Below, piece after piece: positions 13,024 through 64,000 of a stretch of DNA of 64,000 nucleotides. Position 1 is the stretch's first letter. Each line of letters begins with the position of its first letter. Origin of the DNA: Sipunculus nudus (lineage: Eukaryota > Annelida > Sipuncula > Golfingiida > Sipunculidae). The notes beneath the pieces were generated by a model. It was not told where the DNA came from. It did no database searches and saw only the letters and a list, made by a program, of their open reading frames with translations. The DNA is taken from positions 75,314,426 to 75,378,425 of the forward strand of contig CM049309.1 in NCBI GenBank assembly GCA_026874595.1, written 5' to 3'. The translations under genes were made by a program, and so were the position numbers.

Positions 13024-13025
<2 letters not shown>

Positions 13026-25048: not shown

Positions 25049-25249
25049 TACCGGAAACACTACAACTTTTCATTTTTCCGCAATATCTAAAAAAATATTA
25101 AGCATATAACAATTTTCTTTGTCGCATCTAAAACTAGGATCATTGCCTTATTCCTTCCTATATATAGCCTTGTGCTGCCGTTACCATGGTTACCAAATTT
25201 TGGGGTTAAACTTGACGATCTGAAAATATGTAGTTTTTGGCTTCTATCT

Positions 25250-26257: not shown

Positions 26258-26298
<41 letters not shown>

Positions 26299-26841: not shown

Positions 26842-26900
26842 TTGCTTGCCGGAAATCTTCGATTTTCGCAAGCATGTTGATCACCCGCGTATGTTTGTTG
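26842..26900 (+). repeat. Truncated extra 5' module at the array edge
   Basis: A 56-bp piece with one 5' hairpin (CTTGCCGG at 26845) and a short TGTT tract precedes the first full monomer. It lies between the 3' end of the element at 26821 and the array. This repeats the stacked-5'-end pattern of 24261-24383. Confidence 0.7.
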
Positions 26901-26947
26901 CTTGCCGGAAATCTTCGATTTCCGCAAGCATATTGGTCAGTTGCGTA

Positions 26948-26998
<51 letters not shown>

Positions 26999-27111
26999 TT
27001 GTTTGTCACCACTCTCCTGGCCACAATTTTGCCACAATAACCTTGAAACTTACAGGGATGTTCGAAAACGTAATTTCTAGGTGCCCTATTGTTTTTGGTC
27101 AACATTGCTCC

Positions 27112-27132
27112 AGGGTCAAGGGTCAAGGTCAC
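27112..27132 (+). promoter_or_regulatory. AGGTCA-type cluster, first monomer (repeated in all)
   Basis: AGGGTCAAGGGTCAAGGTCA: GGGTCA-A-GGGTCA is a DR1 arrangement followed directly by another AGGTCA, and TCAAGGTCA is an extended half-site. Present once in each of the 29 monomers. Confidence 0.4.
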
Positions 27133-27259
27133 GACAGGTATGGTTAACGGTTTTTGCACTATAACTTCGCCATAAATAGGCTTATCCACTTCTGCAATAG
27201 CTCATTTTTTTCGTCATCACCTGGCCTTTCTTTTGACATGTAGCTTACTTAAATTTGCC

Positions 27260-27273
27260 GTTACCATGGTTAC
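27260..27273. promoter_or_regulatory. X-box-like site, first monomer (two per monomer)
   Basis: GTTACCATGGTTAC here and again at 27715-27728. Both are one base off the perfect palindrome found at 24735, and both recur in every monomer. Confidence 0.35.
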
Positions 27274-27565
27274 ATTTTTTGGGCAAAATTCATGGAAATT
27301 GGAAATAACACGACCATTTTTTGTAACTTTGTCAATTTTTAAGCTACAGACGTCTGGTTTTGGTCATTATGTACCTTATGGGCAGCTTGACATGATAAAA
27401 CTGAAAGTCTCACCAAATCTCGCACCATTTCTCGTCAAACGAGAGTCTTAGAGATTTCATTAAATATGACCTACAGGTTGCATTTTTTTAACAATGGCTT
27501 TGAAATTGATATATTTTGTGTTATTTATAAATATCTCGAAATCAGTTTTTCATTTTTTGGAAATA

Positions 27566-27582
27566 GCCACCAGGGGGCGTGG
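27566..27582 (+). promoter_or_regulatory. CTCF-like core, first monomer (one per monomer)
   Basis: GCCACCAGGGGGCGTGG, invariant in all 29 monomers and always on the plus strand, giving a same-orientation series at 1.28-kb spacing. Confidence 0.5.
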
Positions 27583-28052
27583 TACATGAAACACTGTAAC
27601 ATGTCATTTTTCTGCAATATCTCAAAAAATATTAAACGTGACACCATTTTTTTTGGTCGTATCTGAAACTAGGAACATTGGCTTATCTCTTCGCACATGT
27701 TGCTTTGTGCTGCCGTTACCATGGTTACCAAATTTTGGGGTAAAACTTGACAATCTGAAAATTCGGAGTTTTCCAGATTCTATCTCTGTTGATATTTGCG
27801 ATAGAAAGGTCTGGTTTTTGGCGTTACACAGCATCCCTCTAGTTCTAAGCCGTTCAATCGCAAGTCTCGTCATATCTCGCACCGTTTCTCGTGAAACGAG
27901 AACACGTGACCATTCAAAGAAATGCCTATAATTCTGTCATTTTTCACGCTACAGACACATGGTTTGCAGCGCTGGATAGCGGCTGACACTCGCAGTCACA
28001 TTCAGGGGTCACATTGTTAGTCTCGTCAAATCTCGCGCCGTTTTTCGCCAGA

Positions 28053-28184
28053 CCACGAAGACACTCGCCGTCGCCGCAAGTGGCGGCAGGGTCCTTACGG
28101 TGGGCGGCCGGCGTGTGCAGCGGTCCGTGACGGCCTCTCCGGGCCCCATCTATGATCATACATGGAGGCACAGTCCATACTTTA
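28053..28184 (+). repeat. GC-rich, CpG-dense monomer tail (first of many)
   Basis: About 130 bp with many CpGs (ACTCGCCGTCGCCGCAAG, GGGCGGCCGGCG and similar), unlike the AT-rich rest. It has no counterpart in the transposon copies at 9.5 or 24.3 kb, so it is probably flanking DNA captured when the monomer formed. It ends TACTTTATT just before the next 5' hairpin. Translated frames show no domain I recognise. Confidence 0.7.
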
Positions 28185-28187
28185 TTG

Positions 28188-28234
28188 CTTGCCGGAAATC
28201 TTCGATTTCCGCAAGCATATTGGTCAGTTGCGTA

Positions 28235-28273
<39 letters not shown>

Positions 28274-29475
28274 TGTTTGTTTGTCACCACTCTCCTGGCC
28301 ACAATTTTGCCACAATAACCTTGAAACTTACAGGGATGTTCGAAAACGTAATTTCTAGGTGCCCTATTGTTTTTGGTCAACATTGCTCCAGGGTCAAGGG
28401 TCAAGGTCACGACAGGTATGCGTTAACGGTTTTTGCACTATAACTTCGCCATAAATAGGCTTATCCACTTCTGCAATAGCTCATTTTTTTCGTCATCACC
28501 TGGCCCTTTCTTTTTGACATGTAGCTTACTTAAATTTGCCGTTACCATGGTTACATTTTTTTGGGCAAAATTCATGGAAAATTGGAAATAACACGACCAT
28601 TTTTTTGTAACTTTGTCAATTTTTAAGCTACAGACGTCTGGTTTTGGTCATTATGTACCTTATGGGCAGCTTGACATGATAAAACTGAAAGTCTCACCAA
28701 ATCTCGCACCATTTCTCGTCAAACGAGAGTCTTCGAGATTTCATTAAATATGACCTACAGGTTGCATTTTTTTAACAATGGCTTTGAAATTGATATATTT
28801 TGTGTTATTTATAAATATCTCGAAATCAGTTTTTCATTTTTTGGAAATAGCCACCAGGGGGCGTGGTACATGAAACACTGTAACATGTCATTTTTCTGCA
28901 ATATCTCAAAAAAATATTAAACGTGACACCATTTTTTTTGGTCGTATCTGAAACTAGGAACATTGGCTTATCTCTTCGCACATGTTGCTTTGTGCTGCCG
29001 TTACCATGGTTACCAAATTTTGGGGTAAAACTTGACAATCTGAAAATTCGGAGTTTTCCAGATTCTATCTCTGTTGATATTTGCGATAGAAAGGTCTGGT
29101 TTTTGGCGTTAGACAGCATCCCTCTAGTTCTAAGCCGTTCAATCGCAAGTCTCGTCATATCTCGCACCGTTTCTCGTGAAACGAGAACACGTGACCATTC
29201 AAAGAAATGCCTATAATTCTGTCATTTTTCACGCTACAGACACATGGTTTGCAGCGCTGGATAGCGGCTGACACTCGCAGTCACATTCAGGGGTCACATT
29301 GTTAGTCTCGTCAAATCTCGCGCCGTTTTTCACCATACCACGAAGACACTCGCCGTCGCCGCAAGTGGCGGCAGGGTCCTTACGGTGGGCGGCCGGCGTG
29401 TGCAGCGGTCCGTGACGGCCTCTCCGGGCCCCATCTATGATCATACATGTTGGAGGCACAGTCCATACTTTATTG
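28188..29475 (+). repeat. Monomer 2, with homopolymer indels
   Basis: 1288 bp. Relative to the interior units it has several single-base insertions in or near homopolymers (for example GGTATGCGTTAACG, GGCCCTTTC, TTTTTTGACATG-like, GGAAAATTGG), and a GTTTGTTGTTTG irregularity in the microsatellite. These could be sequencing or polishing errors at the array edge rather than real variants. Confidence 0.75.
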
Positions 29476-29522
29476 CTTGCCGGAAATCTTCGATTTCCGC
29501 AAGCATATTGGTCAGTTGCGTA

Positions 29523-29565
<43 letters not shown>

Positions 29566-30804
29566 TTGTTTGTCACCACTCTCCTGGCCACAATTTTGCC
29601 ACAATAACCTTGAAACTTACAGGGATGTTCGAAAACGTAATTTCTAGGTGCCCTATTGTTTTTGGTCAACATTGCTCCAGGGTCAAGGGTCAAGGTCACG
29701 ACAGGTATGGTTAACGGTTTTTGCACTATAACTTCGCCATAAATAGGCTTATCCACTTCTGCAATAGCTCATTTTTTTCGTCATCACCTGGCCTTTCTTT
29801 TGACATGTAGCTTACTTAAATTTGCCGTTACCATGGTTACATTTTTTGGGCAAAATTCATGGAAATTGGAAATAACACGACCATTTTTTGTAACTTTGTC
29901 AATTTTTAAGCTACAGACGTCTGGTTTTGGTCATTATGTACCTTATGGGCAGCTTGACATGATAAAACTGAAAGTCTCACCAAATCTCGCACCATTTCTC
30001 GTCAAACGAGAGTCTTCGAGATTTCATTAAATATGACCTACAGGTTGCATTTTTTTAACAATGGCTTTGAAATTGATATATTTTGTGTTATTTATAAATA
30101 TCTCGAAATCAGTTTTTCATTTTTTGGAAATAGCCACCAGGGGGCGTGGTACATGAAACACTGTAACATGTCATTTTTCTGCAATATCTCAAAAAATATT
30201 AAACGTGACACCATTTTTTTTGGTCGTATCTGAAACTAGGAACATTGGCTTATCTCTTCGCACATGTTGCTTTGTGCTGCCGTTACCATGGTTACCAAAT
30301 TTTGGGGTAAAACTTGACAATCTGAAAATTCGGAGTTTTCCAGATTCTATCTCTGTTGATATTTGCGATAGAAAGGTCTGGTTTTTGGCGTTAGACAGCA
30401 TCCCTCTAGTTCTAAGCCGTTCAATCGCAAGTCTCGTCATATCTCGCACCGTTTCTCGTGAAACGAGAACACGTGACCATTCAAAGAAATGCCTATAATT
30501 CTGTCATTTTTCACGCTACAGACACATGGTTTGCAGCGCTGGATAGCGGCTGACACTCGCAGTCACATTCAGGGGTCACATTGTTAGTCTCGTCAAATCT
30601 CGCGCCGTTTTTCACCATACCACGAAGACACTCGCCGTCGCCGCAAGTGGCGGCAGGGTCCTTACGGTGGGCGGCCGGCGTGTGCAGCGGTCCGTGACGG
30701 CCTCTCCGGGCCCCATCTATGATCATACATGTTGGAGGCACAGTCCATACTTTATTGCTTGCCGGAAATCTTCGATTTCCGCAAGCATATTGGTCAGTTG
30801 CGTA

Positions 30805-30847
<43 letters not shown>

Positions 30848-32086
30848 TTGTTTGTCACCACTCTCCTGGCCACAATTTTGCCACAATAACCTTGAAACTT
30901 ACAGGGATGTTCGAAAACGTAATTTCTAGGTGCCCTATTGTTTTTGGTCAACATTGCTCCAGGGTCAAGGGTCAAGGTCACGACAGGTATGGTTAACGGT
31001 TTTTGCACTATAACTTCGCCATAAATAGGCTTATCCACTTCTGCAATAGCTCATTTTTTTCGTCATCACCTGGCCTTTCTTTTGACATGTAGCTTACTTA
31101 AATTTGCCGTTACCATGGTTACATTTTTTGGGCAAAATTCATGGAAATTGGAAATAACACGACCATTTTTTGTAACTTTGTCAATTTTTAAGCTACAGAC
31201 GTCTGGTTTTGGTCATTATGTACCTTATGGGCAGCTTGACATGATAAAACTGAAAGTCTCACCAAATCTCGCACCATTTCTCGTCAAACGAGAGTCTTCG
31301 AGATTTCATTAAATATGACCTACAGGTTGCATTTTTTTAACAATGGCTTTGAAATTGATATATTTTGTGTTATTTATAAATATCTCGAAATCAGTTTTTC
31401 ATTTTTTGGAAATAGCCACCAGGGGGCGTGGTACATGAAACACTGTAACATGTCATTTTTCTGCAATATCTCAAAAAATATTAAACGTGACACCATTTTT
31501 TTTGGTCGTATCTGAAACTAGGAACATTGGCTTATCTCTTCGCACATGTTGCTTTGTGCTGCCGTTACCATGGTTACCAAATTTTGGGGTAAAACTTGAC
31601 AATCTGAAAATTCGGAGTTTTCCAGATTCTATCTCTGTTGATATTTGCGATAGAAAGGTCTGGTTTTTGGCGTTAGACAGCATCCCTCTAGTTCTAAGCC
31701 GTTCAATCGCAAGTCTCGTCATATCTCGCACCGTTTCTCGTGAAACGAGAACACGTGACCATTCAAAGAAATGCCTATAATTCTGTCATTTTTCACGCTA
31801 CAGACACATGGTTTGCAGCGCTGGATAGCGGCTGACACTCGCAGTCACATTCAGGGGTCACATTGTTAGTCTCGTCAAATCTCGCGCCGTTTTTCACCAT
31901 ACCACGAAGACACTCGCCGTCGCCGCAAGTGGCGGCAGGGTCCTTACGGTGGGCGGCCGGCGTGTGCAGCGGTCCGTGACGGCCTCTCCGGGCCCCATCT
32001 ATGATCATACATGTTGGAGGCACAGTCCATACTTTATTGCTTGCCGGAAATCTTCGATTTCCGCAAGCATATTGGTCAGTTGCGTA

Positions 32087-32129
<43 letters not shown>

Positions 32130-33368
32130 TTGTTTGTCACCACTCTCCTGGCCACAATTTTGCCACAATAACCTTGAAACTTACAGGGATGTTCGAAAAC
32201 GTAATTTCTAGGTGCCCTATTGTTTTTGGTCAACATTGCTCCAGGGTCAAGGGTCAAGGTCACGACAGGTATGGTTAACGGTTTTTGCACTATAACTTCG
32301 CCATAAATAGGCTTATCCACTTCTGCAATAGCTCATTTTTTTCGTCATCACCTGGCCTTTCTTTTGACATGTAGCTTACTTAAATTTGCCGTTACCATGG
32401 TTACATTTTTTGGGCAAAATTCATGGAAATTGGAAATAACACGACCATTTTTTGTAACTTTGTCAATTTTTAAGCTACAGACGTCTGGTTTTGGTCATTA
32501 TGTACCTTATGGGCAGCTTGACATGATAAAACTGAAAGTCTCACCAAATCTCGCACCATTTCTCGTCAAACGAGAGTCTTCGAGATTTCATTAAATATGA
32601 CCTACAGGTTGCATTTTTTTAACAATGGCTTTGAAATTGATATATTTTGTGTTATTTATAAATATCTCGAAATCAGTTTTTCATTTTTTGGAAATAGCCA
32701 CCAGGGGGCGTGGTACATGAAACACTGTAACATGTCATTTTTCTGCAATATCTCAAAAAATATTAAACGTGACACCATTTTTTTTGGTCGTATCTGAAAC
32801 TAGGAACATTGGCTTATCTCTTCGCACATGTTGCTTTGTGCTGCCGTTACCATGGTTACCAAATTTTGGGGTAAAACTTGACAATCTGAAAATTCGGAGT
32901 TTTCCAGATTCTATCTCTGTTGATATTTGCGATAGAAAGGTCTGGTTTTTGGCGTTAGACAGCATCCCTCTAGTTCTAAGCCGTTCAATCGCAAGTCTCG
33001 TCATATCTCGCACCGTTTCTCGTGAAACGAGAACACGTGACCATTCAAAGAAATGCCTATAATTCTGTCATTTTTCACGCTACAGACACATGGTTTGCAG
33101 CGCTGGATAGCGGCTGACACTCGCAGTCACATTCAGGGGTCACATTGTTAGTCTCGTCAAATCTCGCGCCGTTTTTCACCATACCACGAAGACACTCGCC
33201 GTCGCCGCAAGTGGCGGCAGGGTCCTTACGGTGGGCGGCCGGCGTGTGCAGCGGTCCGTGACGGCCTCTCCGGGCCCCATCTATGATCATACATGTTGGA
33301 GGCACAGTCCATACTTTATTGCTTGCCGGAAATCTTCGATTTCCGCAAGCATATTGGTCAGTTGCGTA

Positions 33369-33415
<47 letters not shown>

Positions 33416-34654
33416 TTGTTTGTCACCACTCTCCTGGCCACAATTTTGCCACAATAACCTTGAAACTTACAGGGATGTTCGAAAACGTAATTTCTAGGTG
33501 CCCTATTGTTTTTGGTCAACATTGCTCCAGGGTCAAGGGTCAAGGTCACGACAGGTATGGTTAACGGTTTTTGCACTATAACTTCGCCATAAATAGGCTT
33601 ATCCACTTCTGCAATAGCTCATTTTTTTCGTCATCACCTGGCCTTTCTTTTGACATGTAGCTTACTTAAATTTGCCGTTACCATGGTTACATTTTTTGGG
33701 CAAAATTCATGGAAATTGGAAATAACACGACCATTTTTTGTAACTTTGTCAATTTTTAAGCTACAGACGTCTGGTTTTGGTCATTATGTACCTTATGGGC
33801 AGCTTGACATGATAAAACTGAAAGTCTCACCAAATCTCGCACCATTTCTCGTCAAACGAGAGTCTTCGAGATTTCATTAAATATGACCTACAGGTTGCAT
33901 TTTTTTAACAATGGCTTTGAAATTGATATATTTTGTGTTATTTATAAATATCTCGAAATCAGTTTTTCATTTTTTGGAAATAGCCACCAGGGGGCGTGGT
34001 ACATGAAACACTGTAACATGTCATTTTTCTGCAATATCTCAAAAAATATTAAACGTGACACCATTTTTTTTGGTCGTATCTGAAACTAGGAACATTGGCT
34101 TATCTCTTCGCACATGTTGCTTTGTGCTGCCGTTACCATGGTTACCAAATTTTGGGGTAAAACTTGACAATCTGAAAATTCGGAGTTTTCCAGATTCTAT
34201 CTCTGTTGATATTTGCGATAGAAAGGTCTGGTTTTTGGCGTTAGACAGCATCCCTCTAGTTCTAAGCCGTTCAATCGCAAGTCTCGTCATATCTCGCACC
34301 GTTTCTCGTGAAACGAGAACACGTGACCATTCAAAGAAATGCCTATAATTCTGTCATTTTTCACGCTACAGACACATGGTTTGCAGCGCTGGATAGCGGC
34401 TGACACTCGCAGTCACATTCAGGGGTCACATTGTTAGTCTCGTCAAATCTCGCGCCGTTTTTCACCATACCACGAAGACACTCGCCGTCGCCGCAAGTGG
34501 CGGCAGGGTCCTTACGGTGGGCGGCCGGCGTGTGCAGCGGTCCGTGACGGCCTCTCCGGGCCCCATCTATGATCATACATGTTGGAGGCACAGTCCATAC
34601 TTTATTGCTTGCCGGAAATCTTCGATTTCCGCAAGCATATTGGTCAGTTGCGTA

Positions 34655-34701
<47 letters not shown>

Positions 34702-35940
34702 TTGTTTGTCACCACTCTCCTGGCCACAATTTTGCCACAATAACCTTGAAACTTACAGGGATGTTCGAAAACGTAATTTCTAGGTGCCCTATTGTTTTTG
34801 GTCAACATTGCTCCAGGGTCAAGGGTCAAGGTCACGACAGGTATGGTTAACGGTTTTTGCACTATAACTTCGCCATAAATAGGCTTATCCACTTCTGCAA
34901 TAGCTCATTTTTTTCGTCATCACCTGGCCTTTCTTTTGACATGTAGCTTACTTAAATTTGCCGTTACCATGGTTACATTTTTTGGGCAAAATTCATGGAA
35001 ATTGGAAATAACACGACCATTTTTTGTAACTTTGTCAATTTTTAAGCTACAGACGTCTGGTTTTGGTCATTATGTACCTTATGGGCAGCTTGACATGATA
35101 AAACTGAAAGTCTCACCAAATCTCGCACCATTTCTCGTCAAACGAGAGTCTTCGAGATTTCATTAAATATGACCTACAGGTTGCATTTTTTTAACAATGG
35201 CTTTGAAATTGATATATTTTGTGTTATTTATAAATATCTCGAAATCAGTTTTTCATTTTTTGGAAATAGCCACCAGGGGGCGTGGTACATGAAACACTGT
35301 AACATGTCATTTTTCTGCAATATCTCAAAAAATATTAAACGTGACACCATTTTTTTTGGTCGTATCTGAAACTAGGAACATTGGCTTATCTCTTCGCACA
35401 TGTTGCTTTGTGCTGCCGTTACCATGGTTACCAAATTTTGGGGTAAAACTTGACAATCTGAAAATTCGGAGTTTTCCAGATTCTATCTCTGTTGATATTT
35501 GCGATAGAAAGGTCTGGTTTTTGGCGTTAGACAGCATCCCTCTAGTTCTAAGCCGTTCAATCGCAAGTCTCGTCATATCTCGCACCGTTTCTCGTGAAAC
35601 GAGAACACGTGACCATTCAAAGAAATGCCTATAATTCTGTCATTTTTCACGCTACAGACACATGGTTTGCAGCGCTGGATAGCGGCTGACACTCGCAGTC
35701 ACATTCAGGGGTCACATTGTTAGTCTCGTCAAATCTCGCGCCGTTTTTCACCATACCACGAAGACACTCGCCGTCGCCGCAAGTGGCGGCAGGGTCCTTA
35801 CGGTGGGCGGCCGGCGTGTGCAGCGGTCCGTGACGGCCTCTCCGGGCCCCATCTATGATCATACATGTTGGAGGCACAGTCCATACTTTATTGCTTGCCG
35901 GAAATCTTCGATTTCCGCAAGCATATTGGTCAGTTGCGTA

Positions 35941-35983
<43 letters not shown>

Positions 35984-37222
35984 TTGTTTGTCACCACTCT
36001 CCTGGCCACAATTTTGCCACAATAACCTTGAAACTTACAGGGATGTTCGAAAACGTAATTTCTAGGTGCCCTATTGTTTTTGGTCAACATTGCTCCAGGG
36101 TCAAGGGTCAAGGTCACGACAGGTATGGTTAACGGTTTTTGCACTATAACTTCGCCATAAATAGGCTTATCCACTTCTGCAATAGCTCATTTTTTTCGTC
36201 ATCACCTGGCCTTTCTTTTGACATGTAGCTTACTTAAATTTGCCGTTACCATGGTTACATTTTTTGGGCAAAATTCATGGAAATTGGAAATAACACGACC
36301 ATTTTTTGTAACTTTGTCAATTTTTAAGCTACAGACGTCTGGTTTTGGTCATTATGTACCTTATGGGCAGCTTGACATGATAAAACTGAAAGTCTCACCA
36401 AATCTCGCACCATTTCTCGTCAAACGAGAGTCTTCGAGATTTCATTAAATATGACCTACAGGTTGCATTTTTTTAACAATGGCTTTGAAATTGATATATT
36501 TTGTGTTATTTATAAATATCTCGAAATCAGTTTTTCATTTTTTGGAAATAGCCACCAGGGGGCGTGGTACATGAAACACTGTAACATGTCATTTTTCTGC
36601 AATATCTCAAAAAATATTAAACGTGACACCATTTTTTTTGGTCGTATCTGAAACTAGGAACATTGGCTTATCTCTTCGCACATGTTGCTTTGTGCTGCCG
36701 TTACCATGGTTACCAAATTTTGGGGTAAAACTTGACAATCTGAAAATTCGGAGTTTTCCAGATTCTATCTCTGTTGATATTTGCGATAGAAAGGTCTGGT
36801 TTTTGGCGTTACACAGCATCCCTCTAGTTCTAAGCCGTTCAATCGCAAGTCTCGTCATATCTCGCACCGTTTCTCGTGAAACGAGAACACGTGACCATTC
36901 AAAGAAATGCCTATAATTCTGTCATTTTTCACGCTACAGACACATGGTTTGCAGCGCTGGATAGCGGCTGACACTCGCAGTCACATTCAGGGGTCACATT
37001 GTTAGTCTCGTCAAATCTCGCGCCGTTTTTCACCATACCACGAAGACACTCGCCGTCGCCGCAAGTGGCGGCAGGGTCCTTACGGTGGGCGGCCGGCGTG
37101 TGCAGCGGTCCGTGACGGCCTCTCCGGGCCCCATCTATGATCATACATGTTGGAGGCACAGTCCATACTTTATTGCTTGCCGGAAATCTTCGATTTCCGC
37201 AAGCATATTGGTCAGTTGCGTA

Positions 37223-37269
<47 letters not shown>

Positions 37270-38508
37270 TTGTTTGTCACCACTCTCCTGGCCACAATTT
37301 TGCCACAATAACCTTGAAACTTACAGGGATGTTCGAAAACGTAATTTCTAGGTGCCCTATTGTTTTTGGTCAACATTGCTCCAGGGTCAAGGGTCAAGGT
37401 CACGACAGGTATGGTTAACGGTTTTTGCACTATAACTTCGCCATAAATAGGCTTATCCACTTCTGCAATAGCTCATTTTTTTCGTCATCACCTGGCCTTT
37501 CTTTTGACATGTAGCTTACTTAAATTTGCCGTTACCATGGTTACATTTTTTGGGCAAAATTCATGGAAATTGGAAATAACACGACCATTTTTTGTAACTT
37601 TGTCAATTTTTAAGCTACAGACGTCTGGTTTTGGTCATTATGTACCTTATGGGCAGCTTGACATGATAAAACTGAAAGTCTCACCAAATCTCGCACCATT
37701 TCTCGTCAAACGAGAGTCTTCGAGATTTCATTAAATATGACCTACAGGTTGCATTTTTTTAACAATGGCTTTGAAATTGATATATTTTGTGTTATTTATA
37801 AATATCTCGAAATCAGTTTTTCATTTTTTGGAAATAGCCACCAGGGGGCGTGGTACATGAAACACTGTAACATGTCATTTTTCTGCAATATCTCAAAAAA
37901 TATTAAACGTGACACCATTTTTTTTGGTCGTATCTGAAACTAGGAACATTGGCTTATCTCTTCGCACATGTTGCTTTGTGCTGCCGTTACCATGGTTACC
38001 AAATTTTGGGGTAAAACTTGACAATCTGAAAATTCGGAGTTTTCCAGATTCTATCTCTGTTGATATTTGCGATAGAAAGGTCTGGTTTTTGGCGTTAGAC
38101 AGCATCCCTCTAGTTCTAAGCCGTTCAATCGCAAGTCTCGTCATATCTCGCACCGTTTCTCGTGAAACGAGAACACGTGACCATTCAAAGAAATGCCTAT
38201 AATTCTGTCATTTTTCACGCTACAGACACATGGTTTGCAGCGCTGGATAGCGGCTGACACTCGCAGTCACATTCAGGGGTCACATTGTTAGTCTCGTCAA
38301 ATCTCGCGCCGTTTTTCACCATACCACGAAGACACTCGCCGTCGCCGCAAGTGGCGGCAGGGTCCTTACGGTGGGCGGCCGGCGTGTGCAGCGGTCCGTG
38401 ACGGCCTCTCCGGGCCCCATCTATGATCATACATGTTGGAGGCACAGTCCATACTTTATTGCTTGCCGGAAATCTTCGATTTCCGCAAGCATATTGGTCA
38501 GTTGCGTA

Positions 38509-38559
<51 letters not shown>

Positions 38560-39806
38560 TTGTTTGTCACCACTCTCCTGGCCACAATTTTGCCACAATA
38601 ACCTTGAAACTTACAGGGATGTTCGAAAACGTAATTTCTAGGTGCCCTATTGTTTTTGGTCAACATTGCTCCAGGGTCAAGGGTCAAGGTCACGACAGGT
38701 ATGGTTAACGGTTTTTGCACTATAACTTCGCCATAAATAGGCTTATCCACTTCTGCAATAGCTCATTTTTTTCGTCATCACCTGGCCTTTCTTTTGACAT
38801 GTAGCTTACTTAAATTTGCCGTTACCATGGTTACATTTTTTGGGCAAAATTCATGGAAATTGGAAATAACACGACCATTTTTTGTAACTTTGTCAATTTT
38901 TAAGCTACAGACGTCTGGTTTTGGTCATTATGTACCTTATGGGCAGCTTGACATGATAAAACTGAAAGTCTCACCAAATCTCGCACCATTTCTCGTCAAA
39001 CGAGAGTCTTCGAGATTTCATTAAATATGACCTACAGGTTGCATTTTTTTAACAATGGCTTTGAAATTGATATATTTTGTGTTATTTATAAATATCTCGA
39101 AATCAGTTTTTCATTTTTTGGAAATAGCCACCAGGGGGCGTGGTACATGAAACACTGTAACATGTCATTTTTCTGCAATATCTCAAAAAATATTAAACGT
39201 GACACCATTTTTTTTGGTCGTATCTGAAACTAGGAACATTGGCTTATCTCTTCGCACATGTTGCTTTGTGCTGCCGTTACCATGGTTACCAAATTTTGGG
39301 GTAAAACTTGACAATCTGAAAATTCGGAGTTTTCCAGATTCTATCTCTGTTGATATTTGCGATAGAAAGGTCTGGTTTTTGGCGTTAGACAGCATCCCTC
39401 TAGTTCTAAGCCGTTCAATCGCAAGTCTCGTCATATCTCGCACCGTTTCTCGTGAAACGAGAACACGTGACCATTCAAAGAAATGCCTATAATTCTGTCA
39501 TTTTTCACGCTACAGACACATGGTTTGCAGCGCTGGATAGCGGCTGACACTCGCAGTCACATTCAGGGGTCACATTGTTAGTCTCGTCAAATCTCGCGCC
39601 GTTTTTCACCATACCACGAAGACACTCGCCGTCGCCGCAAGTGGCGGCAGGGTCCTTACGGTGGGCGGCCGGCGTGTGCAGCGGTCCGTGACGGCCTCTC
39701 CGGGCCCCATCTATGATCATACATGTTGGAGGCACAGTCCATACTTTATTGCTTGCCGGAAATCTTCGATTTCCGCAAGCATATTGGTCAGTTGCGTATG
39801 TCTGTT

Positions 39807-39845
<39 letters not shown>

Positions 39846-41084: not shown

Positions 41085-41131
<47 letters not shown>

Positions 41132-42370: not shown

Positions 42371-42417
<47 letters not shown>

Positions 42418-43656: not shown

Positions 43657-43699
<43 letters not shown>

Positions 43700-44938: not shown

Positions 44939-44981
<43 letters not shown>

Positions 44982-46220: not shown

Positions 46221-46259
<39 letters not shown>

Positions 46260-47497: not shown

Positions 47498-47540
<43 letters not shown>

Positions 47541-48779: not shown

Positions 48780-48822
<43 letters not shown>

Positions 48823-50061: not shown

Positions 50062-50104
<43 letters not shown>

Positions 50105-51343: not shown

Positions 51344-51390
<47 letters not shown>

Positions 51391-52629
51391 TTGTTTGTCA
51401 CCACTCTCCTGGCCACAATTTTGCCACAATAACCTTGAAACTTACAGGGATGTTCGAAAACGTAATTTCTAGGTGCCCTATTGTTTTTGGTCAACATTGC
51501 TCCAGGGTCAAGGGTCAAGGTCACGACAGGTATGGTTAACGGTTTTTGCACTATAACTTCGCCATAAATAGGCTTATCCACTTCTGCAATAGCTCATTTT
51601 TTTCGTCATCACCTGGCCTTTCTTTTGACATGTAGCTTACTTAAATTTGCCGTTACCATGGTTACATTTTTTGGGCAAAATTCATGGAAATTGGAAATAA
51701 CACGACCATTTTTTGTAACTTTGTCAATTTTTAAGCTACAGACGTCTGGTTTTGGTCATTATGTACCTTATGGGCAGCTTGACATGATAAAACTGAAAGT
51801 CTCACCAAATCTCGCACCATTTCTCGTCAAACGAGAGTCTTCGAGATTTCATTAAATATGACCTACAGGTTGCATTTTTTTAACAATGGCTTTGAAATTG
51901 ATATATTTTGTGTTATTTATAAATATCTCGAAATCAGTTTTTCATTTTTTGGAAATAGCCACCAGGGGGCGTGGTACATGAAACACTGTAACATGTCATT
52001 TTTCTGCAATATCTCAAAAAATATTAAACGTGGCACCATTTTTTTTGGTCGTATCTGAAACTAGGAACATTGGCTTATCTCTTCGCACATGTTGCTTTGT
52101 GCTGCCGTTACCATGGTTACCAAATTTTGGGGTAAAACTTGACAATCTGAAAATTCGGAGTTTTCCAGATTCTATCTCTGTTGATATTTGCGATAGAAAG
52201 GTCTGGTTTTTGGCGTTACACAGCATCCCTCTAGTTCTAAGCCGTTCAATCGCAAGTCTCGTCATATCTCGCACCGTTTCTCGTGAAACGAGAACACGTG
52301 ACCATTCAAAGAAATGCCTATAATTCTGTCATTTTTCACGCTACAGACACATGGTTTGCAGCGCTGGATAGCGGCTGACACTCGCAGTCACATTCAGGGG
52401 TCACATTGTTAGTCTCGTCAAATCTCGCGCCGTTTTTCACCATACCACGAAGACACTCGCCGTCGCCGCAAGTGGCGGCAGGGTCCTTACGGTGGGCGGC
52501 CGGCGTGTGCAGCGGTCCGTGACGGCCTCTCCGGGCCCCATCTATGATCATACATGTTGGAGGCACAGTCCATACTTTATTGCTTGCCGGAAATCTTCGA
52601 TTTCCGCAAGCATATTGGTCAGTTGCGTA

Positions 52630-52672
<43 letters not shown>

Positions 52673-53911
52673 TTGTTTGTCACCACTCTCCTGGCCACAA
52701 TTTTGCCACAATAACCTTGAAACTTACAGGGATGTTCGAAAACGTAATTTCTAGGTGCCCTATTGTTTTTGGTCAACATTGCTCCAGGGTCAAGGGTCAA
52801 GGTCACGACAGGTATGGTTAACGGTTTTTGCACTATAACTTCGCCATAAATAGGCTTATCCACTTCTGCAATAGCTCATTTTTTTCGTCATCACCTGGCC
52901 TTTCTTTTGACATGTAGCTTACTTAAATTTGCCGTTACCATGGTTACATTTTTTGGGCAAAATTCATGGAAATTGGAAATAACACGACCATTTTTTGTAA
53001 CTTTGTCAATTTTTAAGCTACAGACGTCTGGTTTTGGTCATTATGTACCTTATGGGCAGCTTGACATGATAAAACTGAAAGTCTCACCAAATCTCGCACC
53101 ATTTCTCGTCAAACGAGAGTCTTCGAGATTTCATTAAATATGACCTACAGGTTGCATTTTTTTAACAATGGCTTTGAAATTGATATATTTTGTGTTATTT
53201 ATAAATATCTCGAAATCAGTTTTTCATTTTTTGGAAATAGCCACCAGGGGGCGTGGTACATGAAACACTGTAACATGTCATTTTTCTGCAATATCTCAAA
53301 AAATATTAAACGTGACACCATTTTTTTTGGTCGTATCTGAAACTAGGAACATTGGCTTATCTCTTCGCACATGTTGCTTTGTGCTGCCGTTACCATGGTT
53401 ACCAAATTTTGGGGTAAAACTTGACAATCTGAAAATTCGGAGTTTTCCAGATTCTATCTCTGTTGATATTTGCGATAGAAAGGTCTGGTTTTTGGCGTTA
53501 CACAGCATCCCTCTAGTTCTAAGCCGTTCAATCGCAAGTCTCGTCATATCTCGCACCGTTTCTCGTGAAACGAGAACACGTGACCATTCAAAGAAATGCC
53601 TATAATTCTGTCATTTTTCACGCTACAGACACATGGTTTGCAGCGCTGGATAGCGGCTGACACTCGCAGTCACATTCAGGGGTCACATTGTTAGTCTCGT
53701 CAAATCTCGCGCCGTTTTTCACCATACCACGAAGACACTCGCCGTCGCCGCAAGTGGCGGCAGGGTCCTTACGGTGGGCGGCCGGCGTGTGCAGCGGTCC
53801 GTGACGGCCTCTCCGGGCCCCATCTATGATCATACATGTTGGAGGCACAGTCCATACTTTATTGCTTGCCGGAAATCTTCGATTTCCGCAAGCATATTGG
53901 TCAGTTGCGTA

Positions 53912-53954
<43 letters not shown>

Positions 53955-55193
53955 TTGTTTGTCACCACTCTCCTGGCCACAATTTTGCCACAATAACCTT
54001 GAAACTTACAGGGATGTTCGAAAACGTAATTTCTAGGTGCCCTATTGTTTTTGGTCAACATTGCTCCAGGGTCAAGGGTCAAGGTCACGACAGGTATGGT
54101 TAACGGTTTTTGCACTATAACTTCGCCATAAATAGGCTTATCCACTTCTGCAATAGCTCATTTTTTTCGTCATCACCTGGCCTTTCTTTTGACATGTAGC
54201 TTACTTAAATTTGCCGTTACCATGGTTACATTTTTTGGGCAAAATTCATGGAAATTGGAAATAACACGACCATTTTTTGTAACTTTGTCAATTTTTAAGC
54301 TACAGACGTCTGGTTTTGGTCATTATGTACCTTATGGGCAGCTTGACATGATAAAACTGAAAGTCTCACCAAATCTCGCACCATTTCTCGTCAAACGAGA
54401 GTCTTCGAGATTTCATTAAATATGACCTACAGGTTGCATTTTTTTAACAATGGCTTTGAAATTGATATATTTTGTGTTATTTATAAATATCTCGAAATCA
54501 GTTTTTCATTTTTTGGAAATAGCCACCAGGGGGCGTGGTACATGAAACACTGTAACATGTCATTTTTCTGCAATATCTCAAAAAATATTAAACGTGACAC
54601 CATTTTTTTTGGTCGTATCTGAAACTAGGAACATTGGCTTATCTCTTCGCACATGTTGCTTTGTGCTGCCGTTACCATGGTTACCAAATTTTGGGGTAAA
54701 ACTTGACAATCTGAAAATTCGGAGTTTTCCAGATTCTATCTCTGTTGATATTTGCGATAGAAAGGTCTGGTTTTTGGCGTTACACAGCATCCCTCTAGTT
54801 CTAAGCCGTTCAATCGCAAGTCTCGTCATATCTCGCACCGTTTCTCGTGAAACGAGAACACGTGACCATTCAAAGAAATGCCTATAATTCTGTCATTTTT
54901 CACGCTACAGACACATGGTTTGCAGCGCTGGATAGCGGCTGACACTCGCAGTCACATTCAGGGGTCACATTGTTAGTCTCGTCAAATCTCGCGCCGTTTT
55001 TCACCATACCACGAAGACACTCGCCGTCGCCGCAAGTGGCGGCAGGGTCCTTACGGTGGGCGGCCGGCGTGTGCAGCGGTCCGTGACGGCCTCTCCGGGC
55101 CCCATCTATGATCATACATGTTGGAGGCACAGTCCATACTTTATTGCTTGCCGGAAATCTTCGATTTCCGCAAGCATATTGGTCAGTTGCGTA

Positions 55194-55240
<47 letters not shown>

Positions 55241-56479
55241 TTGTTTGTCACCACTCTCCTGGCCACAATTTTGCCACAATAACCTTGAAACTTACAGGGA
55301 TGTTCGAAAACGTAATTTCTAGGTGCCCTATTGTTTTTGGTCAACATTGCTCCAGGGTCAAGGGTCAAGGTCACGACAGGTATGGTTAACGGTTTTTGCA
55401 CTATAACTTCGCCATAAATAGGCTTATCCACTTCTGCAATAGCTCATTTTTTTCGTCATCACCTGGCCTTTCTTTTGACATGTAGCTTACTTAAATTTGC
55501 CGTTACCATGGTTACATTTTTTGGGCAAAATTCATGGAAATTGGAAATAACACGACCATTTTTTGTAACTTTGTCAATTTTTAAGCTACAGACGTCTGGT
55601 TTTGGTCATTATGTACCTTATGGGCAGCTTGACATGATAAAACTGAAAGTCTCACCAAATCTCGCACCATTTCTCGTCAAACGAGAGTCTTCGAGATTTC
55701 ATTAAATATGACCTACAGGTTGCATTTTTTTAACAATGGCTTTGAAATTGATATATTTTGTGTTATTTATAAATATCTCGAAATCAGTTTTTCATTTTTT
55801 GGAAATAGCCACCAGGGGGCGTGGTACATGAAACACTGTAACATGTCATTTTTCTGCAATATCTCAAAAAATATTAAACGTGACACCATTTTTTTTGGTC
55901 GTATCTGAAACTAGGAACATTGGCTTATCTCTTCGCACATGTTGCTTTGTGCTGCCGTTACCATGGTTACCAAATTTTGGGGTAAAACTTGACAATCTGA
56001 AAATTCGGAGTTTTCCAGATTCTATCTCTGTTGATATTTGCGATAGAAAGGTCTGGTTTTTGGCGTTAGACAGCATCCCTCTAGTTCTAAGCCGTTCAAT
56101 CGCAAGTCTCGTCATATCTCGCACCGTTTCTCGTGAAACGAGAACACGTGACCATTCAAAGAAATGCCTATAATTCTGTCATTTTTCACGCTACAGACAC
56201 ATGGTTTGCAGCGCTGGATAGCGGCTGACACTCGCAGTCACATTCAGGGGTCACATTGTTAGTCTCGTCAAATCTCGCGCCGTTTTTCACCATACCACGA
56301 AGACACTCGCCGTCGCCGCAAGTGGCGGCAGGGTCCTTACGGTGGGCGGCCGGCGTGTGCAGCGGTCCGTGACGGCCTCTCCGGGCCCCATCTATGATCA
56401 TACATGTTGGAGGCACAGTCCATACTTTATTGCTTGCCGGAAATCTTCGATTTCCGCAAGCATATTGGTCAGTTGCGTA

Positions 56480-56522
<43 letters not shown>

Positions 56523-57761
56523 TTGTTTGTCACCACTCTCCTGGCCACAATTTTGCCACAATAACCTTGAAACTTACAGGGATGTTCGAAAACGTAATTT
56601 CTAGGTGCCCTATTGTTTTTGGTCAACATTGCTCCAGGGTCAAGGGTCAAGGTCACGACAGGTATGGTTAACGGTTTTTGCACTATAACTTCGCCATAAA
56701 TAGGCTTATCCACTTCTGCAATAGCTCATTTTTTTCGTCATCACCTGGCCTTTCTTTTGACATGTAGCTTACTTAAATTTGCCGTTACCATGGTTACATT
56801 TTTTGGGCAAAATTCATGGAAATTGGAAATAACACGACCATTTTTTGTAACTTTGTCAATTTTTAAGCTACAGACGTCTGGTTTTGGTCATTATGTACCT
56901 TATGGGCAGCTTGACATGATAAAACTGAAAGTCTCACCAAATCTCGCACCATTTCTCGTCAAACGAGAGTCTTCGAGATTTCATTAAATATGACCTACAG
57001 GTTGCATTTTTTTAACAATGGCTTTGAAATTGATATATTTTGTGTTATTTATAAATATCTCGAAATCAGTTTTTCATTTTTTGGAAATAGCCACCAGGGG
57101 GCGTGGTACATGAAACACTGTAACATGTCATTTTTCTGCAATATCTCAAAAAATATTAAACGTGACACCATTTTTTTTGGTCGTATCTGAAACTAGGAAC
57201 ATTGGCTTATCTCTTCGCACATGTTGCTTTGTGCTGCCGTTACCATGGTTACCAAATTTTGGGGTAAAACTTGACAATCTGAAAATTCGGAGTTTTCCAG
57301 ATTCTATCTCTGTTGATATTTGCGATAGAAAGGTCTGGTTTTTGGCGTTAGACAGCATCCCTCTAGTTCTAAGCCGTTCAATCGCAAGTCTCGTCATATC
57401 TCGCACCGTTTCTCGTGAAACGAGAACACGTGACCATTCAAAGAAATGCCTATAATTCTGTCATTTTTCACGCTACAGACACATGGTTTGCAGCGCTGGA
57501 TAGCGGCTGACACTCGCAGTCACATTCAGGGGTCACATTGTTAGTCTCGTCAAATCTCGCGCCGTTTTTCACCATACCACGAAGACACTCGCCGTCGCCG
57601 CAAGTGGCGGCAGGGTCCTTACGGTGGGCGGCCGGCGTGTGCAGCGGTCCGTGACGGCCTCTCCGGGCCCCATCTATGATCATACATGTTGGAGGCACAG
57701 TCCATACTTTATTGCTTGCCGGAAATCTTCGATTTCCGCAAGCATATTGGTCAGTTGCGTA

Positions 57762-57808
<47 letters not shown>

Positions 57809-59047
57809 TTGTTTGTCACCACTCTCCTGGCCACAATTTTGCCACAATAACCTTGAAACTTACAGGGATGTTCGAAAACGTAATTTCTAGGTGCCCTATT
57901 GTTTTTGGTCAACATTGCTCCAGGGTCAAGGGTCAAGGTCACGACAGGTATGGTTAACGGTTTTTGCACTATAACTTCGCCATAAATAGGCTTATCCACT
58001 TCTGCAATAGCTCATTTTTTTCGTCATCACCTGGCCTTTCTTTTGACATGTAGCTTACTTAAATTTGCCGTTACCATGGTTACATTTTTTGGGCAAAATT
58101 CATGGAAATTGGAAATAACACGACCATTTTTTGTAACTTTGTCAATTTTTAAGCTACAGACGTCTGGTTTTGGTCATTATGTACCTTATGGGCAGCTTGA
58201 CATGATAAAACTGAAAGTCTCACCAAATCTCGCACCATTTCTCGTCAAACGAGAGTCTTCGAGATTTCATTAAATATGACCTACAGGTTGCATTTTTTTA
58301 ACAATGGCTTTGAAATTGATATATTTTGTGTTATTTATAAATATCTCGAAATCAGTTTTTCATTTTTTGGAAATAGCCACCAGGGGGCGTGGTACATGAA
58401 ACACTGTAACATGTCATTTTTCTGCAATATCTCAAAAAATATTAAACGTGACACCATTTTTTTTGGTCGTATCTGAAACTAGGAACATTGGCTTATCTCT
58501 TCGCACATGTTGCTTTGTGCTGCCGTTACCATGGTTACCAAATTTTGGGGTAAAACTTGACAATCTGAAAATTCGGAGTTTTCCAGATTCTATCTCTGTT
58601 GATATTTGCGATAGAAAGGTCTGGTTTTTGGCGTTACACAGCATCCCTCTAGTTCTAAGCCGTTCAATCGCAAGTCTCGTCATATCTCGCACCGTTTCTC
58701 GTGAAACGAGAACACGTGACCATTCAAAGAAATGCCTATAATTCTGTCATTTTTCACGCTACAGACACATGGTTTGCAGCGCTGGATAGCGGCTGACACT
58801 CGCAGTCACATTCAGGGGTCACATTGTTAGTCTCGTCAAATCTCGCGCCGTTTTTCACCATACCACGAAGACACTCGCCGTCGCCGCAAGTGGCGGCAGG
58901 GTCCTTACGGTGGGCGGCCGGCGTGTGCAGCGGTCCGTGACGGCCTCTCCGGGCCCCATCTATGATCATACATGTTGGAGGCACAGTCCATACTTTATTG
59001 CTTGCCGGAAATCTTCGATTTCCGCAAGCATATTGGTCAGTTGCGTA

Positions 59048-59090
<43 letters not shown>

Positions 59091-60329
59091 TTGTTTGTCA
59101 CCACTCTCCTGGCCACAATTTTGCCACAATAACCTTGAAACTTACAGGGATGTTCGAAAACGTAATTTCTAGGTGCCCTATTGTTTTTGGTCAACATTGC
59201 TCCAGGGTCAAGGGTCAAGGTCACGACAGGTATGGTTAACGGTTTTTGCACTATAACTTCGCCATAAATAGGCTTATCCACTTCTGCAATAGCTCATTTT
59301 TTTCGTCATCACCTGGCCTTTCTTTTGACATGTAGCTTACTTAAATTTGCCGTTACCATGGTTACATTTTTTGGGCAAAATTCATGGAAATTGGAAATAA
59401 CACGACCATTTTTTGTAACTTTGTCAATTTTTAAGCTACAGACGTCTGGTTTTGGTCATTATGTACCTTATGGGCAGCTTGACATGATAAAACTGAAAGT
59501 CTCACCAAATCTCGCACCATTTCTCGTCAAACGAGAGTCTTCGAGATTTCATTAAATATGACCTACAGGTTGCATTTTTTTAACAATGGCTTTGAAATTG
59601 ATATATTTTGTGTTATTTATAAATATCTCGAAATCAGTTTTTCATTTTTTGGAAATAGCCACCAGGGGGCGTGGTACATGAAACACTGTAACATGTCATT
59701 TTTCTGCAATATCTCAAAAAATATTAAACGTGACACCATTTTTTTTGGTCGTATCTGAAACTAGGAACATTGGCTTATCTCTTCGCACATGTTGCTTTGT
59801 GCTGCCGTTACCATGGTTACCAAATTTTGGGGTAAAACTTGACAATCTGAAAATTCGGAGTTTTCCAGATTCTATCTCTGTTGATATTTGCGATAGAAAG
59901 GTCTGGTTTTTGGCGTTACACAGCATCCCTCTAGTTCTAAGCCGTTCAATCGCAAGTCTCGTCATATCTCGCACCGTTTCTCGTGAAACGAGAACACGTG
60001 ACCATTCAAAGAAATGCCTATAATTCTGTCATTTTTCACGCTACAGACACATGGTTTGCAGCGCTGGATAGCGGCTGACACTCGCAGTCACATTCAGGGG
60101 TCACATTGTTAGTCTCGTCAAATCTCGCGCCGTTTTTCACCATACCACGAAGACACTCGCCGTCGCCGCAAGTGGCGGCAGGGTCCTTACGGTGGGCGGC
60201 CGGCGTGTGCAGCGGTCCGTGACGGCCTCTCCGGGCCCCATCTATGATCATACATGTTGGAGGCACAGTCCATACTTTATTGCTTGCCGGAAATCTTCGA
60301 TTTCCGCAAGCATATTGGTCAGTTGCGTA

Positions 60330-60376
<47 letters not shown>

Positions 60377-61615
60377 TTGTTTGTCACCACTCTCCTGGCC
60401 ACAATTTTGCCACAATAACCTTGAAACTTACAGGGATGTTCGAAAACGTAATTTCTAGGTGCCCTATTGTTTTTGGTCAACATTGCTCCAGGGTCAAGGG
60501 TCAAGGTCACGACAGGTATGGTTAACGGTTTTTGCACTATAACTTCGCCATAAATAGGCTTATCCACTTCTGCAATAGCTCATTTTTTTCGTCATCACCT
60601 GGCCTTTCTTTTGACATGTAGCTTACTTAAATTTGCCGTTACCATGGTTACATTTTTTGGGCAAAATTCATGGAAATTGGAAATAACACGACCATTTTTT
60701 GTAACTTTGTCAATTTTTAAGCTACAGACGTCTGGTTTTGGTCATTATGTACCTTATGGGCAGCTTGACATGATAAAACTGAAAGTCTCACCAAATCTCG
60801 CACCATTTCTCGTCAAACGAGAGTCTTCGAGATTTCATTAAATATGACCTACAGGTTGCATTTTTTTAACAATGGCTTTGAAATTGATATATTTTGTGTT
60901 ATTTATAAATATCTCGAAATCAGTTTTTCATTTTTTGGAAATAGCCACCAGGGGGCGTGGTACATGAAACACTGTAACATGTCATTTTTCTGCAATATCT
61001 CAAAAAATATTAAACGTGACACCATTTTTTTTGGTCGTATCTGAAACTAGGAACATTGGCTTATCTCTTCGCACATGTTGCTTTGTGCTGCCGTTACCAT
61101 GGTTACCAAATTTTGGGGTAAAACTTGACAATCTGAAAATTCGGAGTTTTCCAGATTCTATCTCTGTTGATATTTGCGATAGAAAGGTCTGGTTTTTGGC
61201 GTTAGACAGCATCCCTCTAGTTCTAAGCCGTTCAATCGCAAGTCTCGTCATATCTCGCACCGTTTCTCGTGAAACGAGAACACGTGACCATTCAAAGAAA
61301 TGCCTATAATTCTGTCATTTTTCACGCTACAGACACATGGTTTGCAGCGCTGGATAGCGGCTGACACTCGCAGTCACATTCAGGGGTCACATTGTTAGTC
61401 TCGTCAAATCTCGCGCCGTTTTTCACCATACCACGAAGACACTCGCCGTCGCCGCAAGTGGCGGCAGGGTCCTTACGGTGGGCGGCCGGCGTGTGCAGCG
61501 GTCCGTGACGGCCTCTCCGGGCCCCATCTATGATCATACATGTTGGAGGCACAGTCCATACTTTATTGCTTGCCGGAAATCTTCGATTTCCGCAAGCATA
61601 TTGGTCAGTTGCGTA

Positions 61616-61658
<43 letters not shown>

Positions 61659-62897
61659 TTGTTTGTCACCACTCTCCTGGCCACAATTTTGCCACAATAA
61701 CCTTGAAACTTACAGGGATGTTCGAAAACGTAATTTCTAGGTGCCCTATTGTTTTTGGTCAACATTGCTCCAGGGTCAAGGGTCAAGGTCACGACAGGTA
61801 TGGTTAACGGTTTTTGCACTATAACTTCGCCATAAATAGGCTTATCCACTTCTGCAATAGCTCATTTTTTTCGTCATCACCTGGCCTTTCTTTTGACATG
61901 TAGCTTACTTAAATTTGCCGTTACCATGGTTACATTTTTTGGGCAAAATTCATGGAAATTGGAAATAACACGACCATTTTTTGTAACTTTGTCAATTTTT
62001 AAGCTACAGACGTCTGGTTTTGGTCATTATGTACCTTATGGGCAGCTTGACATGATAAAACTGAAAGTCTCACCAAATCTCGCACCATTTCTCGTCAAAC
62101 GAGAGTCTTCGAGATTTCATTAAATATGACCTACAGGTTGCATTTTTTTAACAATGGCTTTGAAATTGATATATTTTGTGTTATTTATAAATATCTCGAA
62201 ATCAGTTTTTCATTTTTTGGAAATAGCCACCAGGGGGCGTGGTACATGAAACACTGTAACATGTCATTTTTCTGCAATATCTCAAAAAATATTAAACGTG
62301 ACACCATTTTTTTTGGTCGTATCTGAAACTAGGAACATTGGCTTATCTCTTCGCACATGTTGCTTTGTGCTGCCGTTACCATGGTTACCAAATTTTGGGG
62401 TAAAACTTGACAATCTGAAAATTCGGAGTTTTCCAGATTCTATCTCTGTTGATATTTGCGATAGAAAGGTCTGGTTTTTGGCGTTACACAGCATCCCTCT
62501 AGTTCTAAGCCGTTCAATCGCAAGTCTCGTCATATCTCGCACCGTTTCTCGTGAAACGAGAACACGTGACCATTCAAAGAAATGCCTATAATTCTGTCAT
62601 TTTTCACGCTACAGACACATGGTTTGCAGCGCTGGATAGCGGCTGACACTCGCAGTCACATTCAGGGGTCACATTGTTAGTCTCGTCAAATCTCGCGCCG
62701 TTTTTCACCATACCACGAAGACACTCGCCGTCGCCGCAAGTGGCGGCAGGGTCCTTACGGTGGGCGGCCGGCGTGTGCAGCGGTCCGTGACGGCCTCTCC
62801 GGGCCCCATCTATGATCATACATGTTGGAGGCACAGTCCATACTTTATTGCTTGCCGGAAATCTTCGATTTCCGCAAGCATATTGGTCAGTTGCGTA

Positions 62898-62944
<47 letters not shown>

Positions 62945-64000
62945 TTGTTTGTCACCACTCTCCTGGCCACAATTTTGCCACAATAACCTTGAAACTTACA
63001 GGGATGTTCGAAAACGTAATTTCTAGGTGCCCTATTGTTTTTGGTCAACATTGCTCCAGGGTCAAGGGTCAAGGTCACGACAGGTATGGTTAACGGTTTT
63101 TGCACTATAACTTCGCCATAAATAGGCTTATCCACTTCTGCAATAGCTCATTTTTTTCGTCATCACCTGGCCTTTCTTTTGACATGTAGCTTACTTAAAT
63201 TTGCCGTTACCATGGTTACATTTTTTGGGCAAAATTCATGGAAATTGGAAATAACACGACCATTTTTTGTAACTTTGTCAATTTTTAAGCTACAGACGTC
63301 TGGTTTTGGTCATTATGTACCTTATGGGCAGCTTGACATGATAAAACTGAAAGTCTCACCAAATCTCGCACCATTTCTCGTCAAACGAGAGTCTTCGAGA
63401 TTTCATTAAATATGACCTACAGGTTGCATTTTTTTAACAATGGCTTTGAAATTGATATATTTTGTGTTATTTATAAATATCTCGAAATCAGTTTTTCATT
63501 TTTTGGAAATAGCCACCAGGGGGCGTGGTACATGAAACACTGTAACATGTCATTTTTCTGCAATATCTCAAAAAATATTAAACGTGACACCATTTTTTTT
63601 GGTCGTATCTGAAACTAGGAACATTGGCTTATCTCTTCGCACATGTTGCTTTGTGCTGCCGTTACCATGGTTACCAAATTTTGGGGTAAAACTTGACAAT
63701 CTGAAAATTCGGAGTTTTCCAGATTCTATCTCTGTTGATATTTGCGATAGAAAGGTCTGGTTTTTGGCGTTAGACAGCATCCCTCTAGTTCTAAGCCGTT
63801 CAATCGCAAGTCTCGTCATATCTCGCACCGTTTCTCGTGAAACGAGAACACGTGACCATTCAAAGAAATGCCTATAATTCTGTCATTTTTCACGCTACAG
63901 ACACATGGTTTGCAGCGCTGGATAGCGGCTGACACTCGCAGTCACATTCAGGGGTCACATTGTTAGTCTCGTCAAATCTCGCGCCGTTTTTCACCATACC

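Follow-up and report, generated by a model that had tools for sequence, protein, structure and literature searches.

What kind of sequence fills the right-hand part of a 64,000-nucleotide stretch of the Sipunculus nudus genome (GenBank assembly GCA_026874595.1, contig CM049309.1, positions 75,314,426 to 75,378,425 of the forward strand; hereafter the window), and how did it come to be repeated there in tandem? A first-pass annotation, made from the sequence by eye, had described a transposon-derived macrosatellite. We found that the unit of this array is a non-autonomous Helentron (HINE) truncated on its 3′ side, each copy being joined to the 5′ end of the following one. The description as transposon-derived is borne out, and the transposon behind the satellite is assigned to HINEs because termini are shared, because a relative in the left flank has a paralogous empty site, and because diverged relatives lie in the same flank. 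As for its origin, we modestly favor rolling-circle copying past a terminator that was lost or bypassed. Published sources are cited by PubMed Central (PMC) accession, and what is taken from them refers to excerpts of each paper.

The array and its repeat unit

The 1.28-kb tandem array was confirmed by two counts. Between 26900 and 62850 the unit's opening hairpin was counted 29 times in this assembly, and a 30-mer anchor likewise recurs 29 times within the array, at a spacing of 1278–1290 bp. The array consists of 28 complete units, 1277–1290 bp long, and a partial one that reaches the window edge, 64000, after 1151 bp. These counts bear out the location, period and near-identity given in the first-pass annotation, and the partial unit its statement that the array leaves the window.

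Each complete unit contains a T-rich start, a subterminal repeat, a hairpin, a TGTY microsatellite and a body, in which two pairs of segments (380–540 with 838–1000, and 220–380 with 700–850, offset by about 455 bp) resemble each other and represent old, degenerate sub-repeats. Homology to E2, a diverged relative immediately left of the array, is detectable to about position 1183 of 1282, at about 72% identity over some 1040 columns. The unit ends in a tail of about 95 bp with a guanine-plus-cytosine (G+C) content of 0.59–0.62 in 80-bp steps, versus 0.26–0.54 in the rest of the unit, and directly after this tail come TTTATT and the next hairpin. Between the tail and the continuation of E2 there is a 21-bp match with a score of 26, which 12 of 500 shuffles reached. 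Folding of the tail gave no structure above chance (z 0.37).

The 5′ repeat CTTGCCGGAA (at 9486 in E1, a 4.68-kb relative of the unit in the left flank) is the exact reverse complement of the 3′ repeat TTCCGGCAAG (at 14129 in E1); in E1, reading one further base on either side brings the match to 12 bp. Two 3′ signatures, each made up of TTCCGGCAAG, a gap of 3–4 bp, CGACCTATGGTCG and TCTAG, lie in the window, at 14129–14160 and 26791–26821; the composite signature has these two matches, none of them in the array, and none in 100 shuffles. When the palindrome with CTAG was sought on both strands with up to three mismatches, the window again yielded two matches, both left of the array, and the 3′ subterminal repeat, with at most one mismatch, gave five matches on the + strand, all left of the array. 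Array units have no 3′ subterminal repeat, palindrome or terminus of a HINE. Because the repeat and the palindrome are absent, the unit is to be regarded as a truncated HINE derivative and not as a full member of the group. The 5′ ends of 29 units thus follow one another head to tail, with no internal 3′ end.

The junction between units and the left edge of the array both lie no more than 6 bp from the 5′ end of the HINE. Among 34 5′ ends, 28 of which represent the one unit junction, we distinguished seven contexts, all with TTTNTT ahead of the hairpin; this motif begins at 0.94% of positions. An Rfam search of 26780–29700 (the first two units and the beginning of the third) returned no match at E values up to 1, and a tRNA search of the whole window found none.

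HINE relatives in the left flank

E1, E2 and the array all lie on the + strand (Table 1). Over 394 columns the start of E1 shares 90% identity with the unit, rising to 97.5% right after the microsatellite (273 of 280 columns), and the stretch 13354–13979 makes up the 3′ part of E1. A direct repeat of about 3.4 kb (2832–6284 and 6818–15352, 78–96% identical in pieces), whose second copy is interrupted by E1, supplies the paralogous empty site. Here 3175–5192 matches 7536–9482, ending where E1 begins, and 5190–6284 matches 14161–15352, beginning directly after the CTAG of E1. When the joined flanks of E1 were aligned to the uninterrupted copy, the insertion fell in a run of Ts, and no target duplication was seen at this one site. 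The empty site has six Ts, with eight to the left of E1 and three to its right. The extra Ts suggest that some boundary Ts are part of E1, as reported for Helentrons (PMC4067079).

The termini and the empty site of E1 match the features described for HINEs (PMC7492417, PMC4067079). E1 has subterminal inverted repeats, which in HINEs measure 11–15 bp (PMC7492417, PMC4067079). It has an inverted repeat followed by a GTCY-type microsatellite, namely a hairpin sequence at 9485–9513 and then a TGTY tract; this hairpin was judged by sequence, folds having been computed for the hairpins at 26843 and 28187. Its 3′ palindrome, CGACCTATGGTCG at 14143–14155, folds with a 5-bp stem (z −1.59), and since 16 of 200 shuffles were as good, its energy alone is not significant. 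The insertion lies in T-rich DNA and has no target duplication. Finally, E1 shows no capacity to encode a Rep/helicase: its longest listed open stretch is 99 amino acids, and of its 15 listed stretches of 65 amino acids or more, the 10 scanned against Pfam gave nothing above the cut-off. Nor did five of the nine listed flank stretches of 120 amino acids or more; matches below the cut-off had E values of 0.19–0.22. Within E1, 45-bp inverted repeats (95.6% identical) flank a 626-bp stretch, 11393–12018, which is possibly a nested inverted-repeat element.

We infer, without an empty site in this case, that both ends of E2 belong to one element, an assignment aided by its 3′ repeat TTCCGGCAAGT, which complements ACTTGCCGGAA of the second and third E2 hairpins. 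The match to these two hairpins (ACTTGCC..) extends over 11 bp; in E1, the 3′ ATTCCGGCAAGC complements that element's own GCTTGCCGGAAT. The 5′ end is itself repeated in tandem at two places, at the start of E2 (24254–24443; 59 bp, 3.1 copies) and at the edge of the array (26836–26955; 56 bp, 2.1 copies), and the array adjoins the CTAG of E2.

Table 1. Features of the array and of its relatives in the window
Feature	Position	Strand	Evidence or remark
Tandem array, 28 complete units and a partial 29th, running past the window	26900..64000	+	Hairpin and anchor counts
Unit 1, edge unit	26900..28186	+	3 private substitutions and a 3-bp deletion
Unit 2	28187..29474	+	Seven single-base insertions; probable consensus error
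Unit 3, typical: hairpin, TGTY tract, body, G+C-rich tail, CATACTTTATT before the next hairpin	29475..30756	+	
5′ subterminal repeat and inverted repeat (hairpin) of one unit	28187..28216	+	Fold z −4.80; 0 of 200 shuffles as good
E1, HINE-family element with both termini; first base within T run, hairpin from 9485	9479..14160	+	
3′ end of E1: subterminal repeat, palindrome, CTAG	14129..14160	+	
Paralogous empty site of E1 (approximate place of T run)	5185..5193	+	Flank matches
E2, diverged HINE-family block: three 5′-end hairpins at start, 3′ signature and CTAG at 26791–26821	24254..26821	+	
Left edge: TTTG tract and extra 5′-end hairpin (26843/26844), between the CTAG of E2 and unit 1	26822..26899	+	Fold of hairpin 26843, z −3.61

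Variation among units and origin of the array

With the TGTC tract set aside, four sequences occur among the 26 complete interior units (units 3–28), with 16, 8, 1 and 1 members. The two main classes (24 of the 26 units) are distinguished by a single C/G site, at which the 28 complete units carry C in 11 cases and G in 17. The singletons are unit 16, which has lost a T (placed at 46915 in a T run), and unit 20, with an A-to-G change at 52033. Together with the 4-bp steps in the tract, these are the variants that the first-pass annotation had listed, and all were recovered. Its statement that units differ almost only at these sites does not hold for the first two units. In unit 1, private substitutions give A at 27450, G at 28047 and G at 28051, and 3 bp are deleted at 28165. 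Unit 2 differs by seven single-base insertions, six of which lengthen homopolymers, and by an altered tract, with no substitutions outside it; the multiple alignment shows two of these insertions as two insertions and two substitutions, and in pairwise comparisons insertions alone suffice. A one-sided pattern of insertions is what sequencing consensus error produces. The unit 2 insertions are probably such error and hint at a weak stretch of assembly near the array edge, and the copy number of the array is not to be trusted from the assembly alone. Unit 11 has a C-to-T change within the tract, and tract length and the C/G site vary independently from unit to unit.

With two private changes in ~32,000 bases, the array is either young or strongly homogenized, as the first-pass annotation had proposed and as the placement of 24 interior units in two one-site classes supports. 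It is young or homogeneous enough for its junctions to have survived.

Helitrons are copied from the 5′ end as far as the 3′ hairpin, where replication stops, and in the model of Xiong et al. (2016) the terminator is lost through recombination of internally repeated 5′ ends, which leads to arrays of 3′-truncated Helitrons (PMC12628747, PMC8268682). Also described are events in which the 3′ end is bypassed and flanking DNA captured, and joined-end products in fungal relatives (PMC5148889). The array fits a rolling-circle model because it has many 5′ ends and no internal 3′ ends, because its phase is set by the 5′ end, and because 5′ ends are multiplied nearby; 3′-end bypass with capture of flanking DNA (PMC5148889) would explain the unit tail. 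We therefore lean, if only slightly, toward an origin in which the terminator was lost or bypassed and the array was seeded by rolling-circle copying and then homogenized by exchange. The Rep/helicase of a Helentron, acting in trans, would copy a HINE as a circle. With the terminator lost or bypassed, copying would leave the body, traverse some 95 bp of G+C-rich sequence and re-enter the 5′ end, and repeated rounds would yield a head-to-tail concatemer, inserted at a T-rich site beside E2. We infer both the formation of this concatemer and its insertion. Unequal exchange or conversion would afterward have maintained the similarity of interior units and interspersed the C and G versions, leaving greater divergence in the edge unit; such later exchange is suggested by the spread of two alleles among units and by the divergent edge unit. 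By extension, a Helentron without terminator may be a self-concatenating replicon keyed to its 5′ hairpin alone, the macrosatellite unit being a transposon plus a captured scrap of DNA, a proposal that we make tentatively and that falls somewhat short of probable. If true, the locus offers a direct snapshot of the recent birth of an animal satellite through terminator bypass.

Several observations weigh against an origin by rolling-circle copying. Ordinary recombination of the repeated 5′ ends at the left edge would yield the same junction, and under a single-circle burst two alleles at one site need later exchange. The array's right end, the predicted place of a single 3′ end, falls outside the window; no source of the G+C-rich tail was found within it; and the Pfam scans of 10 of 15 E1 and five of nine flank stretches found no Rep/helicase in it. 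Of the seven 5′-end contexts, four are embedded in TTTG tracts and a fifth in a T run; they are thus not fully independent, and the TTTNTT pattern is supportive but not an independent proof. The order of haplotypes along units 3–29 showed no excess repetition at lags 1–9, and at lags 8 and 9 repetition was below chance in some measures. Clustering of the C version among units (one of 12 versus nine of 15; post hoc p 0.014, change-point permutation p 0.06) is only suggestive.

The most serious competing account, which we nevertheless judge rather unlikely, dispenses with a rolling-circle concatemer. In it a HINE inserted either beside a second one or within its 3′ part, and the two 5′ hairpins then exchanged unequally, which amplified the interval. 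E1, E2 and the array are indeed relatives that lie near one another in the same orientation, 5′ hairpins are repeated both at E2 and at the array edge, and the array adjoins the CTAG of E2; mixed alleles among units and a divergent edge unit are, moreover, normal for exchange. Since recombination between neighboring HINE 5′ ends gives an identical junction and an identical left edge, our preference for rolling-circle copying is no more than slight. Recombination alone leaves unexplained both the unit tail and the recurrence of 5′-end multiplication at separate places, although neither point is decisive.

That an assembler multiplied or mis-joined a few real copies is a possibility to which the seven insertions of unit 2, with no substitutions outside the tract, lend some color, as they indicate poor consensus near the array edge. 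Nevertheless, tract length and the C/G site vary independently among units, and units 1, 11, 16 and 20 carry private changes, which makes simple multiplication of one copy unlikely; the objection also concerns copy number more than the existence of the array. We therefore consider an artifact improbable. Still harder to credit is a satellite that owes nothing to transposition, acquired a piece of a HINE and expanded through tandem duplication with breakpoints at arbitrary places. For some 95 bp of the unit no HINE source is recognizable in the window, as such a history would allow, but the alignment with E2 covers most of the unit, and arbitrary breakpoints would be unlikely to place both the unit junction and the left edge so close to the HINE 5′ end.

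Comparison with described elements and neighboring repeats

Truncated Helitron arrays are already known in plants (PMC12628747). Those described by Xiong, Dooner and Du in 2016 (via PMC12628747, PMC8268682, PMC5148889) are likewise head-to-tail, with the 5′ end kept and the 3′ end missing, and contain several to several hundred repeats. Their units are partly decayed, whereas here a HINE/Helentron with subterminal repeats forms near-identical units, and the single 3′ end is predicted to lie beyond the window. For a bat, Drosophila, rice and maize, tandem insertions have also been mentioned (PMC5148889).

In oysters, HINEs that carry tandem repeats in their center are well known. Cg_HINE of Crassostrea gigas shares with the elements described here a 5′ subterminal and inverted repeat, a GTCY-type microsatellite, repeats in the center, a 3′ subterminal repeat with palindrome, and a T-rich target without target duplication, but its tandem part is a central repeat averaging 140–180 bp, whereas in the present case the unit takes up most of the element's 5′ part (PMC7492417). 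Helitron-related satellite DNAs of oysters are similar in their link to Helitrons or Helentrons and in having monomers of up to several kb (PMC8268682, PMC11136912); the Helitron-like monomers inspected are central repeats (PMC11136912), whereas the array unit here includes the 5′ terminus. Pearl elements, MgE and DTC84 of bivalves are HINE-like and have short central repeats (PMC7492417), a likeness drawn from their description only. The DINE-1/HINE elements of Drosophila, mites and mosquitoes have the same anatomy, a TT or T-rich target and a variable number of boundary Ts; they differ in sequence, and CTAG is there a feature of proto-Helentrons, whereas here E1 and E2 end in CTAG (PMC4067079). 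Helitron-2 of Drosophila virilis has abundant truncated copies, mainly of the first 928 bp of the 5′ end, and internal tandem repeats, but the tandem unit is a 154-bp internal repeat and not, as here, the truncated element itself (PMC3833285).

In the excerpts consulted, we found no description of a satellite unit formed by the 5′ terminus and most of the body of a HINE. In reviews it has been proposed that satellites are seeded by Helitron-type elements whose rolling-circle replication runs past a lost terminator, and the array fits this recognized but rarely well-demonstrated route from mobile to satellite DNA; the oyster cases in these sources concern central repeats, and here the satellite unit is most of the 5′ part of a HINE. 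Because 3′-ended relatives and an empty site are adjacent and the junctions are kept, the terminator-loss model is testable at one locus. Exact scans found neither the 3′ motif nor the older hairpin in viral contigs, and no array hairpin in prokaryotic genome contigs; these collections being viral and prokaryotic, the scans allow no inference on animal relatives. In a literature search for the 10-mer, the matches listed seemed unrelated, as judged by title and the start of the abstract.

Two further kinds of repeat lie in the flank. A tandem duplication of about 1.05 kb (15136–16176 and 16166–17220, 98.4% identical) contains small open stretches, and those of the first copy gave no Pfam match above the cut-off. 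Short arrays of a 21-bp unit around TCGTACGTACGA occur in the flank repeats at 4019–4137, 5672–5842, 8376–8458 and 14677–14918.

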